The notes under the pieces are model-generated. The model made no database searches. It was not told the DNA's origin and saw nothing but the letters and a program-made list of their open reading frames with translations. From Gammaproteobacteria bacterium (lineage in GTDB: Bacteria; Pseudomonadota; Gammaproteobacteria; JAJPIJ01): a stretch of DNA of 64,000 nt. The stretch spans positions 1 through 64,000 of the forward strand of contig JAJVHZ010000065.1 of the NCBI GenBank assembly GCA_022072255.1, read 5' to 3'. Positions 14,885 through 42,017 of the stretch are shown one piece after another (position 1 is the first letter of the stretch; each line of letters begins with the position of its first letter). The position numbers were made by a program, and so were the translations under genes.

Positions 14885-17800
14885 TCAATCTTCAAACAAG
14901 TCTTTCTGATCCGATGTGGCGAATAGCTCCGGCTGTCGCTTGACGCCGCCCGGCGCGGCTTTGCCGGTTCCTGATTTGCCCTTCGCGCTCTTTTTCGTCG
15001 CAGCCTTCTTCTTCGCGCCCTTCTCGTGCAGCCCTTCGGCCACCTCTTCGGCGTAGCGTTGGTGATTGAGTTCCAGCAAACGGTCGAGAACTTCGCGCCG
15101 CGCCGCTTCGCTGATCGTGAAGCGCACGCCCTGTTTCGTCTCGTGAAAATCGTGGTCGAGCCGCAAGTCCGTCCAGCCGTAGGCGCGGGCGACGGCCTCA
15201 TCCATCTCCTGGTGCAGTTCGCGCAGGCGGCCAATGTCGGTGGAAGATTCTTCGGGGTTGTGAAAGCGGTTGTAGGTTTTGGTCAAGCCTTCCTGACGCG
15301 CGAGCATGATGGATTGGCGGTGTATGTGGTATTGATCGCCAACCTCTTCAAGCATGTTTGTCGCTACCGGGAATGGAAATGTGTCAAATAAATCCGAAGG
15401 AGCATAGCGCAACGTAGCTCCCATTGTTGAGCAATAACGATAGGCCCAACTTACATGAGCTGCCGACTGCAACACAGCAAAAGAACCATACTTTTGTAGT
15501 CCAATTACAACGTGAGGTGCAGAATAGACCCACCCAGTTGGAACAAAATCGAAATTGACGTATTTGCTTGTAAAGCTATGAAAGAGAACTCGTGGCAGAT
15601 TTCTTATCTTTGCATAGCTTTCTAATCGCTTGTCCGAAAATTTCCAAAAGTCTGGTTCGTGTATTTGACCTGTCCTTGAATCAAAATAAGGTTTTACTCT
15701 AACTTCTAAAATGCGCAGACATTCGGGATATTCCGAGGCTTTCTCGTAATCCCAATCTCTAAAATTGATCACCCATCTTTTGGGTTCACGAATTGGGTCC
15801 GTGTTAAATTCCTGCCCCCCAAGAAATGGCTGAATCACATCAGTATTTTTTGGATTGCTTTGCAAAAGCTGCTCTACTTCAGGTCTCTCTAAAACGAACC
15901 CGACACACCCGGTAGTAGATCCCTTAAATGCTGCTCCTTCATTGGATTTAAGCTTATATGGATTCCCGGTGTTCCGGCCTATCTCCGTAAGTGCGGAAGA
16001 AATTTGTGAAGTAAGCTTACCATCGAGGCTAAAGACGCCGCTCCATTTATAACGTGTCATCCATACTAACGTTACAATTACGGATGCGGCACCATACCAA
16101 TTCACATTAGTGTTAGCCCGTATAAGGCTCAACCCTTCTCTTAAAAGCTGGTCTAATCCTAGTTGCCTAGTATCACCCTGAGAGATTGTATTTGTGGTGA
16201 TATAGCCAATAAATCCACTACTGTTTAATAGTGATCCACCTCTGAGTAAGAAGAATGCGCAAATATCTGCGTAACTTGCCTTCTGGCCATTAGCTATCTG
16301 CTCACCTATGTAACTTCGATAACCTTCACCACAAACTTTGTTAATATCTATCCCTTTTAGAAAAGGGGGATTCCCAACAAGCATATCGAACCCGTTCCGC
16401 TCAACAAAAACCTCAGGAAATTCAAGCGGCCAATGAAACGTCATCCGTCCATTTAGTACCTTTTCCGCAGCCTCTTTGAACTTCCCAATCTCTTTATTCT
16501 CGACGTAATAGTTTGCCTGAATCGCCGCGTTGTTCTGCCAATCCTCCTTTTGACGCGCATTGCCCGTGCGGAACTCGACCGCTACCAGCAAGTCTGCGGC
16601 GTAGCGCAACTGCGCCGTCTTCGCTTCGGCCTCGGCCAACAACTGCTGCTGGATTTCGGCGTCTTCAACGTGCTCTGCTGGTCGTGCTTCGATGCGTTTG
16701 CGCAAGGCGATTACTTCATCGGCTACTTTTTCAACAGCACTAGTGAAATAGCTCTTCTGCTTATTATCAAGATCGAGCGTGAAGTATCTGATCTGATCCA
16801 AGTGATGTATGCCAACAAGCGAATCGCCGGGGCGGACGGCGTGATCCAGAAAGGTGAACGGTTTGTCTTTGGCCAGCGTCAACAGCCACAGACTGAGCTT
16901 GGCCATCTCGACGGCCAGCGGATTTTTGTCCACGCCGTAAAGACAGCGCTGCGCGATGATGCGCTGGGCGTATGACATCCGCTCGTCGGTCTCTTGCGGA
17001 ATCAAGGCTTCATCGAGCGCGCCGGTGGCGACGGCGCCTTCGGGCGTAATGCGCGGCGCGCCGGGCTGTTCTTTCTCGATCTCTTCCCAGGCTTCGACCA
17101 GCCGTTCGGAAAGATAGCGGCACGCCTGCACCAGAAACGCGCCCGACCCGCAGGCCATATCGCAAATCTTCAGATCGAGCAGTTCGCGCGGCGAACGCAG
17201 CCGCCATTCCTCTTTCGGCTTGCCTTCCGCTGGGCCGACATAAACCAGCGGCTCCAGCGTGTATTGCACAATCGGTTCGGTCAGAGAGCGCGGCGTGTAA
17301 TGCGTGCCGCTGGAACGCCGGTCGGTTCCCTTGGTGACGTAAACGCTCCCCTGCGGAATGACGACGGGGCGGTCGAAGGAATCGTCGCGGACGAACGCGG
17401 CGAACGGGCGGACGCGTTTGAAGAGCGCTTCGTCGTTGCCGCACGCGGCGCGCATCCGGTTGATCTGGTCGGTTTCGAGTTCGGCTTCGAGCAACCGCCG
17501 CAATGCGTTTTCCGACTTGCCGGTCTGTTCGCGCAAAAACTTGATCAGTTCGTCGTCGCCCGACCCGCGCACGCGTTCCAATTCGCTGAGCGCGATCTCC
17601 GGCTCGTCGCCTTTCGTCCCGATGAGGCCCAGCACGGGCGTCGCCGCGCGTTTCGCTGTGTGATCGAGCAAGCCTTCGTAAACGTGGCCGATCTGTTCGA
17701 TGTCCAGTGCGCGGAAGCTCAACCGCCGCGCCTCGCCCTGCATCTCCAGGTATTGCAGCGAGCGCAGCAGGTGCAACACCGTGCGGTTGTTGATCGGCAG

Positions 17801-18961
17801 CGGTTGGGCGGGCGCCTCGCGCCATTTGGTTCCCTCGGCGCGGCCTTCCAGAAACGGGAAGCGGTCGGGATCGAAGAGTCGCCCGCCATACGCCGGCAGC
17901 TTCATTCGCTCGTGCTCGACGCCGCCGAATACGGCGCGAAATGTCGAGAGCAACCGCACCCACGCATCCAGCCGCCGCTCCAGAACCTCTTCGCCGTGCT
18001 GGTCGGCGGCCTCCTGCAATTGCGCGATCAAGGTCGAGACGGCGTAATGCTGGTCGTAGAGCGGATCGCCCAGCAGCAACAATCCCCGCTCTTCGGCGCA
18101 GAAGAGAAACACGAGGCGCATCATCACTGTCAGCGCCGATTCGTAGAGCACGGGTTCGGGCACGCGGGCCAGCAACGCGCGCCCGTTGTCCTGGTCGGCG
18201 CGGTCGAGCGATTGGATCAACACCTCGACGGCGCGGCGCACCTGATAACCGAGTTGATCTGTGACCTCTTGCTGATGTTTGGCGCTCTCACGCAGCATCG
18301 CATCAAGCGTCTCGTCATCCGGAACCGCGAAAAATCGCTTCACTCCGAGCAGGCTCGTGAAAGCCTGAAGCGTGATCTTCTCCTCCATCCACAAACTGGC
18401 GTACCACGAAGCGTAGCCGGTCGTTTCGCCGCGCGGCGCGTAAACCAACATCCAGCGTTCGCCGTTGGTGACCAGGCCCAGCTTCACATCCGAAGCGTGC
18501 AGCAACTCCATCATCCGCGTCGCTGGCGAAGCCTTCCAATGGCGTTCGGCGACGGGTTTCTCCAAATCCTGATCCGCCGGGTAGACCTGAATCAGCAATC
18601 GCGGCTGATGAGCGGGTTCGCCATCCGCCGGATTGCGGACAATGATGTCGGGCCGCAGCATCTCGCCGTGTTCCGAAACGGTGGCTTTGATGGTTTCGGG
18701 AATGGATTGGCCTTCGGCGAGGACTTCAGCAGGCAGCCCCAGCGTCTGTTCGAGCACGTATTTGATCCAGGCGCGATGGAGCGCGGGCTTGTCCGCATTC
18801 TCTTCCCACTCTTCAAACGCGAGGCGCAGGTTGCGGTAATGGTCAGGGTCGTGGGCGTCCAGGCCCTGAGGAAAGACCCGTTCGAGCACCGGCATCGTGA
18901 GGAACGGGCCGGAGACTTCGACGAGCGAGAGCCATTCTGCGTGGTGACGTTTGCTGGACAT
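14885..18961 (-). CDS. drmMI: DISARM class 1 DNA adenine methyltransferase DrmMI
   Basis: A 1358-residue protein with methylase motif I DMACGSGAFLVQ near residue 600 and catalytic NPPF near residue 860, the order of an Eco57I/type II-like N6-adenine methylase. The N-terminal 500 residues form the DrmMI-specific region; the C-terminus ends in a lysine-rich low-complexity tail (KKKAATKKSAKGKSG). Methylation of the host genome marks self in DISARM. Between roughly residues 820 and 1200, covering NPPF and the probable target-recognition part, the DNA is much richer in A+T than the flanks, suggesting replacement by recombination. The ATG has AGAGGAT upstream. drmD lies 157 bases upstream, beyond a long inverted repeat. 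Confidence 0.92.
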   Translation of the reverse strand: MSSKRHHAEWLSLVEVSGPFLTMPVLERVFPQGLDAHDPDHYRNLRLAFEEWEENADKPALHRAWIKYVLEQTLGLPAEVLAEGQSIPETIKATVSEHGEMLRPDIIVRNPADGEPAHQPRLLIQVYPADQDLEKPVAERHWKASPATRMMELLHASDVKLGLVTNGERWMLVYAPRGETTGYASWYASLWMEEKITLQAFTSLLGVKRFFAVPDDETLDAMLRESAKHQQEVTDQLGYQVRRAVEVLIQSLDRADQDNGRALLARVPEPVLYESALTVMMRLVFLFCAEERGLLLLGDPLYDQHYAVSTLIAQLQEAADQHGEEVLERRLDAWVRLLSTFRAVFGGVEHERMKLPAYGGRLFDPDRFPFLEGRAEGTKWREAPAQPLPINNRTVLHLLRSLQYLEMQGEARRLSFRALDIEQIGHVYEGLLDHTAKRAATPVLGLIGTKGDEPEIALSELERVRGSGDDELIKFLREQTGKSENALRRLLEAELETDQINRMRAACGNDEALFKRVRPFAAFVRDDSFDRPVVIPQGSVYVTKGTDRRSSGTHYTPRSLTEPIVQYTLEPLVYVGPAEGKPKEEWRLRSPRELLDLKICDMACGSGAFLVQACRYLSERLVEAWEEIEKEQPGAPRITPEGAVATGALDEALIPQETDERMSYAQRIIAQRCLYGVDKNPLAVEMAKLSLWLLTLAKDKPFTFLDHAVRPGDSLVGIHHLDQIRYFTLDLDNKQKSYFTSAVEKVADEVIALRKRIEARPAEHVEDAEIQQQLLAEAEAKTAQLRYAADLLVAVEFRTGNARQKEDWQNNAAIQANYYVENKEIGKFKEAAEKVLNGRMTFHWPLEFPEVFVERNGFDMLVGNPPFLKGIDINKVCGEGYRSYIGEQIANGQKASYADICAFFLLRGGSLLNSSGFIGYITTNTISQGDTRQLGLDQLLREGLSLIRANTNVNWYGAASVIVTLVWMTRYKWSGVFSLDGKLTSQISSALTEIGRNTGNPYKLKSNEGAAFKGSTTGCVGFVLERPEVEQLLQSNPKNTDVIQPFLGGQEFNTDPIREPKRWVINFRDWDYEKASEYPECLRILEVRVKPYFDSRTGQIHEPDFWKFSDKRLESYAKIRNLPRVLFHSFTSKYVNFDFVPTGWVYSAPHVVIGLQKYGSFAVLQSAAHVSWAYRYCSTMGATLRYAPSDLFDTFPFPVATNMLEEVGDQYHIHRQSIMLARQEGLTKTYNRFHNPEESSTDIGRLRELHQEMDEAVARAYGWTDLRLDHDFHETKQGVRFTISEAARREVLDRLLELNHQRYAEEVAEGLHEKGAKKKAATKKSAKGKSGTGKAAPGGVKRQPELFATSDQKDLFED

Positions 18962-19000
18962 TCCGATTCAATCCTCTTTCAACATTCCAGGTAGGGCAGA

Positions 19001-19093
19001 GAGATTACGGAACAAACGGAAATAACGGAACAGACGGAAAAATCTCCGGAATACTTCCGTTTGTTCCGTTATTTCCGTTTGTTCCGTAATCTC
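19001..19093. repeat. Long near-perfect inverted repeat (39-bp arms) between drmD and drmMI
   Basis: The left arm 19001-19039 and right arm 19055-19093 are reverse complements with one mismatch; the 15-base loop is 19040-19054. The arms are built from ACGGAACAA / ACGGAAATA-like units, as in GAGATTACGGAACAAACGG. A smaller inverted pair, GGTAGGG (18990-18996) and CCCTACC (19117-19123), encloses it and touches the drmD stop codon. Transcribed from drmD toward drmMI it would fold into a very stable hairpin. It could be a processing or attenuation structure or a dispersed palindromic element. Confidence 0.85.
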
Positions 19094-19118
19094 TTCCGTT
19101 TTCCCAAATATCAAAACC

Positions 19119-22100
19119 CTACCTTCCATATCTGCCCGCCAACATCTCCGGCACGAGATAGGTCACCGCCACTGGAAACATTCGCGGCTGCGGGTCGGCG
19201 AAACGGGCGCGGATGGCGGCCTGCTCGCGTTCGATCTCAGCCGGGATGGCGCGGACGCGGGCGCGCAACGCGTCGTAGTTGCGCTCGAACTGTTCTCGCT
19301 CGGCGGGCGCCAGGCCGGGCAGGAAGCTTTGAGTCAATTCCGGGTCGTCCAATTGCTCCTGAATCGAATTGAGCAGTTCGGTCATGATCGTTTTGATGTC
19401 GGCGGCCTCTTTTTCGGCGCGCACGGTCAGCGTCTTCTGCAAACTCTCGGCGCGCTCTTTCATGCGGGCTTCGAGCGCCAGCCGCAGCGATTCGGAATTC
19501 TTCGGCCACAATTTGATCAAATCCTGTTTGACCATTTCGGAAGGCTCGCGGTCGGTGGCGGCGCGCAGCGCGTCTTCCATCTCGCGCAGCGTATTGAATC
19601 GCGAGAATCGCCCGCCGATCAACTGGCCGCCGGCGGTGATGACTTCTTCGTGCAGCCGATGGCGGTCGCCGCCGATGACGACCAGGCGCGCGTGCGCGAT
19701 CATCGCCGGGTGGCGTAGCGCCGAATCAGGCGCGATGCGGGCGGCGATGCGATTCAAACGCTTGCTGCCTTCCAGCGACCAGACCTCGGCGCGCAACAAC
19801 CGCAGGCTCATTTGAACCAGGCGATGGTTGAGGTGAACGAGAACAACATCTTCGCGGCCCCGCGCCAAATTATGGTCGAAGGTGAACGGGCGGACTTGTT
19901 CCTTGAACAACGGGTGCGCCAGCCCGTCGGCGCACAGCCCCCAACTGCCCGACAACGCGGGCAGATGAAAGACAGGGCATTTGCGCTGATTGGGATCGGG
20001 CCAAACACCTTCGACTTCGGCCTGGATCAACGGCGGCTGATCGGCCAGCGCCAGCGCGACCTCTACGACCTTCTGAATATTTTCGGGCGACAGTCGCAGC
20101 TCGCGTTTGGTCTCGTGCAAACGATCCATCAATTCCCTGATCTGCTTCTGTAAGTCGCGCTCGAATTTGAAGAGCTTGCGCACTGGCTCGGCTTCGTCTT
20201 CGGCCCGGCGCGTATCCAGGCGGCTGCGGCGGCCCAGCATCGCTTCTTCGACCTGTTGAGCGATGACGGGGCCGACTTTGCCCAAATCTTCGCGGATCGT
20301 TTCGACCTTCCGCACGGCGCGCATCAGGAATTCCAGATCGGCTTCGAGATCGCCGACGGAGGTTTCGGCCAGGTTGCGCTCGCGCTCGCGGTAGCCCTTG
20401 CCGACGAAGTGATGGATCAGCACCTGCTTGGCCTTTTGTCCGTGGCGGTCTACGCGGCCATTGCGCTGTTCCAGGCGGTTGGGATTCCAGGGGATTTCGT
20501 AATGAATCAGCCGCGAGCAGTGATTTTGCAGGTCAATGCCTTCGCTGGCGGCGTCGGTGGCAAGCAGGATGCGCACGGGACTTTGTTCGGGATCGGTCTG
20601 GAACGCGGCCTTGATCTCTTCGCGCTTGTCGGCGTCCATCCCGCCGAACATCGTCATCAGCCGGTCGCCGCCGGTCAGCCCCTCGGCGGCCAGAACCGAG
20701 TAGAGCCAATTCTGCGTCGCGCGGTATTCGGTGAAGATGATGACGCGGTTGTTCGACCATTTGCCGCCGGGCCGAATGTTTTCGTGTAGCCAGGCGACGA
20801 GAGTTTTGGCTTTGGCGTCGAGATGCGCCGAGGCGGACTCCGCCCAGGTCTTCATCTGTTTGAGCAGGGCGGCTTCTTCGCCGGAGAGTTCCTGAAACAG
20901 CAGGCTCGCCGAATCAACCGCATCGTCGGTGGCGTCCTCTGCTTCGTCGTCAATCCAGTATTCCTCTTCGACGCGATCAATCTGTCGCTGCAAGACGCCG
21001 GGTGTGGGCTTGGCGGCGGATTTGCGGCGTTTGGAATTCTTGATCGTCTTTTCGTGTTGATCGAGCGTGCGCGCGAAAGCGGCGGGGCTGGAGAAGAGCC
21101 GCTTTTTGAGCGTCTTCAGAACGAATTCGGTGGCGACGCGCTGGGCAGTGTCTGAAGCTTTCGCGCTTCGCAGTTTTGCGTATTCGCGCAGCGCCGCGTG
21201 TATCTGGCGCTCTTCGGCCGGGTAATCCACTTCAAGAGATTCAATTGATCGCGTCGCAAAACGGGGATTGCCGAAATCATCCACGGCGAGGGCGGGATCG
21301 GATTTCAGCCGCCGAACCATCACGGCATCCAACTGTTTCCTGTCGGGCGACGTGCCGCGCGCGAACCGCTGATTGTCGAGCAGCTCCAGCAGCGCCGAGA
21401 AACTCTCCGGATAGCCGTTGTGTGGCGTGGCGGTCAAAAAGAGTTTGTGTTCGAAGTGCGGGGCGAGCAATCGGATGGCCTCGGTGCGTAAAGAATCTGT
21501 CGCGTATTTGCCGCGTCCTGACGGAGCGCAGTTGTGCGCTTCGTCCACGATCAGCGCGTCGTAGCGTCGCGGGTAGACCGATTCACCCTCCGACGGCAGC
21601 GTCTCTTTGAAAAGCCGCAGCGGGCGTTCGCGCTTGAGGAAATCAATCGAGGTGATGAGGCGCGGAAAATGCGACCAGGGGTTGACGTGGATTCCGCGCT
21701 TGCGACGCAGGTCTTTCAGCAGATCGCTGTCAACGATGCGGAAATCGAGACCGAATTTGTCGCGCATCTGGTCGCGCCATTGCATCTGCAACGAGGCTGG
21801 GCAGACGACCAGAACCCGCCGCGCGCGATGCCGGATGATGAGTTCGAGGATCGTCATTCCGGCTTCAATGGTCTTGCCGAGTCCGACGTCGTCGGCGATG
21901 AGCAAACTGACGCGCGGCATCTGGATGGCGCGGAAGACCGGATCGAGTTGGTAATCTTCGATGGAGATGCCCGACCTGAACGGCGATTGGATCGAGCGGA
22001 TGTCGGCGGTCGAAGCGGCGCCCCAACGCACCGCGTCGAGAAATGCGTCCAGCCTGTCAGGAGAATCGAAGCCGGTCGGTTCAGGCAAAGCGACTCGCTC

Positions 22101-22325
22101 AATGACCGACGCGCCAGGTTCCAGTTCCCAGATCACTTGCAACTCTTCTCCCAACGCGTCGTCTTCGACGGATGAGAGCGTGACCAGATGCTGGGCGCCG
22201 TTGGACAGAGTTTTCACCGGGGTCAGGGGCAGAGCGCTTTTGGCGATTTCACTGACAATGTACCTGCGCTGCCTGATGTTCACGAGTTGGCCTTGTTCCG
22301 GCGGTCTGGTTGTAGCAAAAGCCAT
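19119..22325 (-). CDS. drmD: DISARM class 1 SNF2-family helicase DrmD
   Basis: The ATG at 22325 has a GTGGGAG ribosome site; a start at 22394 is possible but lacks one. The 1068-residue protein has the SNF2 order of motifs: Walker A-containing LIADDVGLGKTIEAGMTILE near residue 145, CPASLQMQWRDQM, DEAH in LIVDEAHNCAPSG near 259, FLTATPHNGY, then C-terminal IIFTEYRATQNWL and EQRNGRVDRHGQ near 620. The C-terminal third is helical and charged, with possible coiled coils. DrmD is the class 1 marker of DISARM and is thought to act on DNA with the DrmA-DrmB complex. It is first in the operon; drmMI follows after the inverted repeat. Confidence 0.92.
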   Translation of the reverse strand: MAFATTRPPEQGQLVNIRQRRYIVSEIAKSALPLTPVKTLSNGAQHLVTLSSVEDDALGEELQVIWELEPGASVIERVALPEPTGFDSPDRLDAFLDAVRWGAASTADIRSIQSPFRSGISIEDYQLDPVFRAIQMPRVSLLIADDVGLGKTIEAGMTILELIIRHRARRVLVVCPASLQMQWRDQMRDKFGLDFRIVDSDLLKDLRRKRGIHVNPWSHFPRLITSIDFLKRERPLRLFKETLPSEGESVYPRRYDALIVDEAHNCAPSGRGKYATDSLRTEAIRLLAPHFEHKLFLTATPHNGYPESFSALLELLDNQRFARGTSPDRKQLDAVMVRRLKSDPALAVDDFGNPRFATRSIESLEVDYPAEERQIHAALREYAKLRSAKASDTAQRVATEFVLKTLKKRLFSSPAAFARTLDQHEKTIKNSKRRKSAAKPTPGVLQRQIDRVEEEYWIDDEAEDATDDAVDSASLLFQELSGEEAALLKQMKTWAESASAHLDAKAKTLVAWLHENIRPGGKWSNNRVIIFTEYRATQNWLYSVLAAEGLTGGDRLMTMFGGMDADKREEIKAAFQTDPEQSPVRILLATDAASEGIDLQNHCSRLIHYEIPWNPNRLEQRNGRVDRHGQKAKQVLIHHFVGKGYRERERNLAETSVGDLEADLEFLMRAVRKVETIREDLGKVGPVIAQQVEEAMLGRRSRLDTRRAEDEAEPVRKLFKFERDLQKQIRELMDRLHETKRELRLSPENIQKVVEVALALADQPPLIQAEVEGVWPDPNQRKCPVFHLPALSGSWGLCADGLAHPLFKEQVRPFTFDHNLARGREDVVLVHLNHRLVQMSLRLLRAEVWSLEGSKRLNRIAARIAPDSALRHPAMIAHARLVVIGGDRHRLHEEVITAGGQLIGGRFSRFNTLREMEDALRAATDREPSEMVKQDLIKLWPKNSESLRLALEARMKERAESLQKTLTVRAEKEAADIKTIMTELLNSIQEQLDDPELTQSFLPGLAPAEREQFERNYDALRARVRAIPAEIEREQAAIRARFADPQPRMFPVAVTYLVPEMLAGRYGR

Positions 22326-22815
22326 GCGGACTCCCACTGTGTCTTGATTGGCTGAATTTCTTTTGTTGGGCACGAGATCAATAAATCGGAGCAATTAATG
22401 AGGTCGGCGGTATGATAAACAAAAATTGGAGTGATTTGCCAGAAGATTATTGGAAAGCTCCTTTGCGGAAAAGAAGTGTTCTTTCGGTAGGCGTCGTGCA
22501 TTTGAGAAAAACTGTACCTGGTCTGATGATCCCTCCCAATCAATCGCGAGATGTGGTAATAATCGGCCGAACTGGCTGTCCTTCCAATCAAAAAGTACGC
22601 GACCGACATTGCCAAAGACGACGAGATGCCTCGAACCAATCTCGTCGAAATTGAGAGTCTGATCGAGCAGATTCAGGGAACGAATCTGAATCCGTGAGCC
22701 AAAAAGAAAATCGAGTGACTGTCAATGACTGTCCTGAACCTGGTGAAGTGCGAATTGAAATTGCCGGATAGCGCTTGCCCATAGTATTTGCGCCCTGCCA
22801 TCAATAGGAAATTTT
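22326..22815. other. Intergenic region with a short unclassified reading frame
   Basis: This gap separates the leftward drmD from the rightward ARPP-1 pseudogene and must hold divergent promoters; a TTGCCG/CATAGTAT pair near 22760-22790 is a weak candidate for the right-hand gene. A plus-strand frame at 22563-22697 reads like real protein near its end (RTNLVEIESLIEQIQ) but has two stops directly upstream and no partner. It may be a remnant of an unidentified gene, possibly the N-terminal part of a transposase; I cannot confirm this. Nothing else convincing is seen. Confidence 0.5.
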
Positions 22816-34499: not shown

Positions 34500-34541
34500 G
34501 ATTCAAGGGGAGACGAAGCTCGCTTCATCTCCCCTTGAATC
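34500..34541. terminator. Terminator-like hairpin after the VCG-repeat protein gene
   Basis: GATTCAAGGGGAGA and TCTCCCCTTGAATC, with GAAGC/GCTTC inside, form a stem of about 20 bp with a two-base loop and one wobble pair. There is no long T tract. A second, weaker inverted pair (CTTGGGAG near 34388, CTCCCAAG near 34465) lies to its left. No gene is seen in 34240-34563. Confidence 0.65.
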
Positions 34542-41970: not shown

Positions 41971-42017
41971 ACGGGCAATTTCCTGCGGTCAGAAGTTTTG
42001 CGCAGGAAATTGCCCGT
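41971..42017 (+). terminator. Strong hairpin after the large surface-protein gene
   Basis: ACGGGCAATTTCCTGCG pairs perfectly over 17 bp with CGCAGGAAATTGCCCGT around a 13-base loop, 18 bases after the stop codon. No T tract follows, so it may be a bidirectional stop or an mRNA-protecting hairpin. Confidence 0.7.

Follow-up and report, generated by a model that had tools for sequence, protein, structure and literature searches.

A long and nearly perfect palindrome separates drmD from drmMI in a DISARM operon, and raises the question of whether this structure serves the operon or is a mobile sequence that came to rest within it. A preliminary description of this DNA had put forward both readings, after noting an inverted repeat with one mismatch at 19001-19093, between drmD and drmMI, that was expected to fold into a very stable hairpin. 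We analyzed the palindrome within its window, i.e. the whole 64,000-nt stretch of DNA under study, along with related sequences in other genomes.

A stable palindrome in the drmD-drmMI spacer

The repeat is real, its position as first noted lies within one base at each end of the 40-nt arms, and matches for both neighboring genes bear out its placement in a DISARM island that also includes DrmA and DrmB. The features of the locus are as follows:

18962..19118, minus strand: drmD-drmMI spacer of 157 nt with the palindrome inside (an overlapping ATGA in homologous operons)
19119..22394, minus strand: drmD, the upstream gene (NF038317, 1347 bits), with its stop codon 24 nt before the palindrome
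14885..18961, minus strand: drmMI, the downstream gene (PDLC02643, 1791 bits), with its start 38 nt behind the palindrome
19000..19039, no strand: left arm, AGAGATT followed by the words ACGGAACAA, ACGGAAATA, ACGGAACAG and ACGGAA, with a 9-nt period
19040..19054, no strand: loop of 15 nt, the place of the GxxExxY gene in full elements
19055..19094, no strand: right arm, TTCCGTTTG TTCCGTTAT TTCCGTTTG TTCCGTAAT CTCT, with one mismatch to the left arm

An inverted-repeat search identified this palindrome (40-nt arms, 98% complementary, one mismatch, 15-nt loop) as the strongest in the 64-kb window, with arms made of tandem 9-nt words ACGGAANNN (ACGGAA-NNN at 9-nt spacing). The expectation of a very stable hairpin was confirmed, with predicted RNA folding energies of -72.0 kcal/mol on the minus strand and -75.4 on the plus strand, as compared to about -27 kcal/mol for dinucleotide shuffles (z -13.4 and -13.6, respectively; 0 of 200 shuffles as good). 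No T-run was found behind the 40-bp stem, and only small inner stems match the intrinsic-terminator pattern, so that we rejected an intrinsic terminator; no Rfam family was found at the palindrome. Separately, an 8-bp inverted repeat lies outside the palindrome (18989-18996, AGGTAGGG; 19117-19124, CCCTACCT), the right copy of which overlaps the drmD stop, and which may be due to chance. Other strong short inverted repeats in the window are located at 41971-42017 and 34500-34541 (17 nt perfect; 20 nt at 95%).

Related copies and the host of the contig

The bin to which the window belongs includes three copies of the palindrome, namely the window copy, one on contig C124 between a rluD-like and a trxB-like gene, and one on contig C77 at purB/purS, where the purB frame ends inside a palindrome arm (all four gene names being ones we presume from the protein sequences). 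The three contigs bearing these copies stand apart from the remainder of the bin. The window contig has a GC content of 57%, compared to 64-70% in most sampled contigs of the same assembly, and the tetranucleotide profiles of the window contig, C77 and C124 correlate much more closely with the Acidobacteria metagenome-assembled genome (MAG) Bin_42R (r 0.95-0.98) than with core contigs C1, C2, C7 and C28 (r 0.56-0.68). Part of C77 also matches Bin_42R at 99% identity over 5.6 kb. Taken together, composition, this match, and the presence of all three copies on these contigs indicate that the window contig almost certainly belongs to an Acidobacteria genome close to Bin_42R and was misbinned; statements on the kinship of the bin thus do not apply to the window. 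C77 carries in addition a second, GC-rich palindrome (AGCGGAACCGCGCGCG...CGCGCGCGGTTCCGC; L320:14440-14618), in whose place ~870 bp of different sequence are found in the 99% identical contig of Bin_42R.

Much larger sets of copies were obtained from Bin_42R (at least 46) and from MAG ACE_ACI1 (at least 55), counted by hand from the match lists as distinct places. One Bin_42R copy (L059) is 96% identical to the C124 copy over 104 bp, with the alignment ending at the element edges and unrelated flanks on either side, and loop sequences are shared among copies within ACE_ACI1. A pattern scan with one genome per species yielded at least 118 stretches, and the matches listed include Acidobacteria, Verrucomicrobia, Kiritimatiellae, Planctomycetota, Pseudomonadota, Methanosarcina, and others. 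In the genome of Methanosarcina spelaei, the palindrome is present whereas a PF13366 gene is not. The two arms of one copy agree at 93% of positions versus 72% for arms of different copies, a comparison which is only supporting since copies were chosen for being palindromic. Searched as text in the open-access literature, the word sequences returned no mention.

At the purB-purS place occupied by the C77 copy, a search by DNA for an empty site in same-genus genomes gave no match because the contig is misbinned. The same place has a single half arm in ACE_ACI1 and none in a Blastocatellia MAG; this half arm, in the orthologous spacer (L333), is perhaps a remnant left after loss of the other arm.

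GxxExxY genes, split arms, and landing places

Bin_42R and ACE_ACI1 each include a locus (L214 and L204, respectively) in which AGAGATAACGGAA... arms, the same as those of the local solo copies, enclose a gene encoding a GxxExxY protein (for L214, TIGR04256, 1.4e-38, and PF13366 PDDEXK_3, 1.1e-37). The window arms have 38 of 41 positions in common with the left arm of L214 and 36 of 41 with the right one, and the solo copy behind purB on C77 has 35 nt exactly in common with its left arm. The window copy has no GxxExxY gene inside, only the 15-nt loop, and its bin lacks any PF13366 gene, hence we filed it as a solo derivative instead of a full element. Compared with the inner ends of full elements, which bears on an origin by internal deletion, the loops of solo copies gave no match.

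This arrangement extends well beyond these two MAGs. Inverted arms (arm score of at least 14) bracket 40 of 55 GxxExxY loci, versus 5 of 600 random positions and, as a control within the same loci, 1 of 102 positions elsewhere. When genomes were chosen by taxonomy alone, 24 of 29 GxxExxY loci were bracketed; about a quarter of the genes are without arms at the threshold of 14. Word arms were also present at all four GxxExxY loci on viral contigs, one of them scoring weakly, at 13. The arm period at GxxExxY loci is mostly 9 nt, with identity averaging 0.51 at lag 9 as compared to ~0.26 at most other lags. Two loci are arranged differently: in Gemmatirosa kalamazoonensis the gene lies between two complete palindromes (L416:1290-1377 and 1881-1969), not split arms, and a Kiritimatiellae gene (L209) lies amid long palindromes arranged in tandem and lacking 9-nt words (CGGATTTGTTCGCCGCTAACGCGGCTCAC).

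Arm words and protein phylogeny are closely associated. A tree was built from 35 GxxExxY proteins with CxxAA-word arms (13) or CxxAG-word arms (22), three of these labels being assigned manually and loci with different or indistinct words being excluded. A single change separates the two types on this tree, a value as low as which none of 500 shuffles reached (branch support 100/98). Bin_42R carries both types, each GxxExxY gene with its own arms. The fact that arm words follow the protein tree, and that the two types are kept apart within a single genome, indicates that the arms and their gene move together as a unit. The proteins have invariant residues E31, Y34, E81 and K83 (L214 numbering) and nearly invariant D71, Q95 and Y99, which we take to resemble a PD-(D/E)XK nuclease of the RecB/Cas4 sort. 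An AlphaFold model of a viral GxxExxY protein, built from three sequences, had a pLDDT of 47.8, too low to confirm a nuclease fold, and a PDB sequence search identified no relative. Protein searches gave no match in phage records and 8 records for plasmids. In the open-access literature, a source covering few subscription papers or preprints, we found almost nothing on GxxExxY, although the family is widespread; one passage names it, only as a neighboring domain.

The position of copies relative to genes was evaluated with a gene caller trained on the Bin_42R and ACE_ACI1 loci, the sole placement analysis we relied on. The 78 palindromes of these two Acidobacteria MAGs are located between tandem (47), convergent (24) or divergent (4) genes or at a contig edge (3), and never inside genes. 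The median distance between palindrome edge and gene 3' end is 6 nt, with 76 of 95 such ends at 30 nt or less and 27 overlapping the palindrome; for gene 5' ends the median is 83 nt, and 0 of 55 overlap. On a mixed set of loci, naive longest-ORF calls gave 22 convergent and 5 divergent placements, and a cruder per-locus model gave no bias (11 vs 9). The window copy, 24 nt behind the drmD stop, fits this placement behind stop codons. Among finished genomes, that of Bacteroides finegoldii has a full element beginning 1 nt past the stop codon of radA, a junction that in Parabacteroides distasonis is a spacer of 13 bp. Another full element begins 6 nt behind fabD in Sphingomonas parapaucimobilis, with plain fabD-fabG junctions in S. 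paeninsulae and S. meliloti. The GxxExxY gene is on the strand of its neighbors in six annotated records. An empty site for the window copy is provided by three homologous DISARM operons (L287, L288 and L290) in which drmD overlaps the next gene by ATGA, with no gap and no palindrome; in the first two, this next gene was taken as drmMI by eye from its N-terminus. No target-site duplication is visible at the compared empty sites, and none could be read there because all of these sites have diverged.

Competing explanations and known systems

These results suggest that the window palindrome is probably a gene-less, non-autonomous (solo) copy of the GxxExxY hairpin element, inserted behind drmD. 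This matches the suggestion, made in the preliminary description, of a mobile palindrome that landed here, for which dozens of copies at unrelated genes speak. The other suggestion made there, control of relative drmMI and drmD output, is unsupported. A hairpin that evolved as a DISARM-specific RNA switch would fit a very stable stem in an operon spacer; however, the same copies at unrelated genes argue against it, as do homologous DISARM junctions, at which the genes overlap and no palindrome is present. A search of the genome for further copies had been set beforehand as a way to refute a DISARM role, and what it returned (purB/purS, rluD/trxB, and many more) does so in substance. With no palindrome kept at the three homologous drmD junctions, we rejected DISARM-specific regulation as already largely refuted, and consider it the least probable of the readings weighed here. 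Hardly more credible is a REP-type element mobilized by a RAYT, a Y1 HUH transposase. The palindromes are interspersed behind genes, RAYT genes occur in the same genomes, and REPs too are mostly downstream of coding regions (PMC3733652), but RAYT loci carry other, non-periodic palindromes, a conserved GTAG/CGTC tag is lacking, and the stem measures 40 bp compared to 5-13 bp in REPs (PMC3733652). None of ~30 Y1 loci in these genomes has a word palindrome, and RAYT was rejected as the mobilizer.

Two further explanations were weighed. Hairpins might be built in place by replication errors, through template switching between short repeats, instead of being copied from site to site. The words are indeed simple, and the arms agree better within than between copies (0.93 vs 0.72); yet near-identical 104-bp copies with the same loop and unrelated flanks occur in two assemblies, and several ACE_ACI1 copies have loop sequences in common, which makes this origin very unlikely. 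We give somewhat more weight, while still regarding it as unlikely, to a domesticated 3'-end hairpin, either a bidirectional terminator or an mRNA stabilizer, that spread through its usefulness and whose loops were invaded by the GxxExxY gene as a passenger. This would account for the strong placement at gene 3' ends, the filling of the space between convergent stops, and the genomes that have palindromes and no GxxExxY gene. The absence of a T-run behind the stem argues against it, as does the fact that arm words follow the clade of the GxxExxY protein, even inside a single genome; a passenger would have no need of such a match.

Among known systems, the closest functional analogies for a solo GxxExxY hairpin would be REP/RAYT (PMC3733652) and the intervening sequence of 23S rRNA (IVS; PMC4990558). 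REPs are short interspersed palindromes with stems of 5-13 bp, found mostly downstream of genes, and in REP/REPIN and RAYT (TnpA-REP) systems, as here, gene-less copies outnumber a single partner gene and probably form transcribed hairpins (PMC3733652). Unlike in these systems, the stem here is 40 bp of 9-nt words, the partner is a PDDEXK_3-family GxxExxY protein instead of a Y1 HUH transposase, and no conserved GTAG/CGTC tag was found across copies; since tag, stem length and partner gene all differ, membership in REP/RAYT fails. As a separate observation, four RAYT (Y1) genes of Bin_42R and ACE_ACI1 (L183, L192, L195 and L197) adjoin REP-like palindromes of their own, which are non-periodic. 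The 23S rRNA IVS, described as selfish and removed from the transcript by RNase III, has a long stem and a loop that is empty or holds one small ORF for S23p, a four-helix-bundle protein (PMC4990558). The same design is seen here, although at intergenic sites behind stop codons, with 9-nt words, and with GxxExxY. As in MITEs or short IS with terminal inverted repeats, gene-less copies share their ends with a gene-bearing form; the repeats here are instead short-word arrays, solo copies are near-perfect hairpins, the partner is GxxExxY with no DDE transposase seen, and no target duplication is visible at the (diverged) empty sites.

A parallel to the IVS exists in the same genomes, where 19 of 29 loci encoding PF05635 (four-helix-bundle / 23S_rRNA_IVP; L226-L255) lie between inverted arms made of 7-nt words, with an identity of 0.71 at lag 7 and words such as GTGATGG, GGTAGAC, GAGTGGG and AAAAGGC, and are likewise intergenic. 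This suggests that GxxExxY and PF05635 represent two related lifestyles that differ in word length. Cyanobacterial STRR heptanucleotide repeats are intergenic arrays of a short, 7-nt word, and, as a lead only, would resemble the PF05635-linked arms rather than the window element.

Under the reading we prefer, insertion of a GxxExxY hairpin element, the full element consists of an inverted arm of 9-nt words, a gene of ~120-130 codons for a nuclease-like, PDDEXK_3-family GxxExxY protein, and the complementary arm. Copies occupy the narrow gap just past a stop codon, which in this case is that of drmD. The nuclease would recognize the arms and move solo copies in trans. Such trans mobilization is the likeliest mechanism, with a chance that we judge slightly better than even. 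Because a stem of such strength lies in the operon transcript, an incidental effect on drmD and drmMI expression is possible; as with REP hairpins or the RNase III-cut 23S IVS, the hairpin may change how stable the mRNA is or how it is processed, purely as a by-product of its insertion.

More broadly, the association between GxxExxY genes and word arms suggests a class of tiny mobile elements, so far little described, in many bacteria and some archaea. We see about an even chance that this is a class of minimal elements, distributed across many bacterial phyla and some archaea, whose single small PDDEXK_3-family nuclease reads a clade-specific 9-nt word in the hairpin arms and inserts hairpins behind stop codons, with four-helix-bundle (23S IVS-type) proteins forming a parallel 7-nt-word class. 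The tie made here, between GxxExxY and a palindrome of defined word, with a defined landing place and gene-less copies, would bring together an orphan nuclease-like family and a widespread intergenic repeat as a single system open to testing. A further lesson is that very stable hairpins between the genes of an operon, defense operons included, can be debris of mobile elements instead of regulatory devices.
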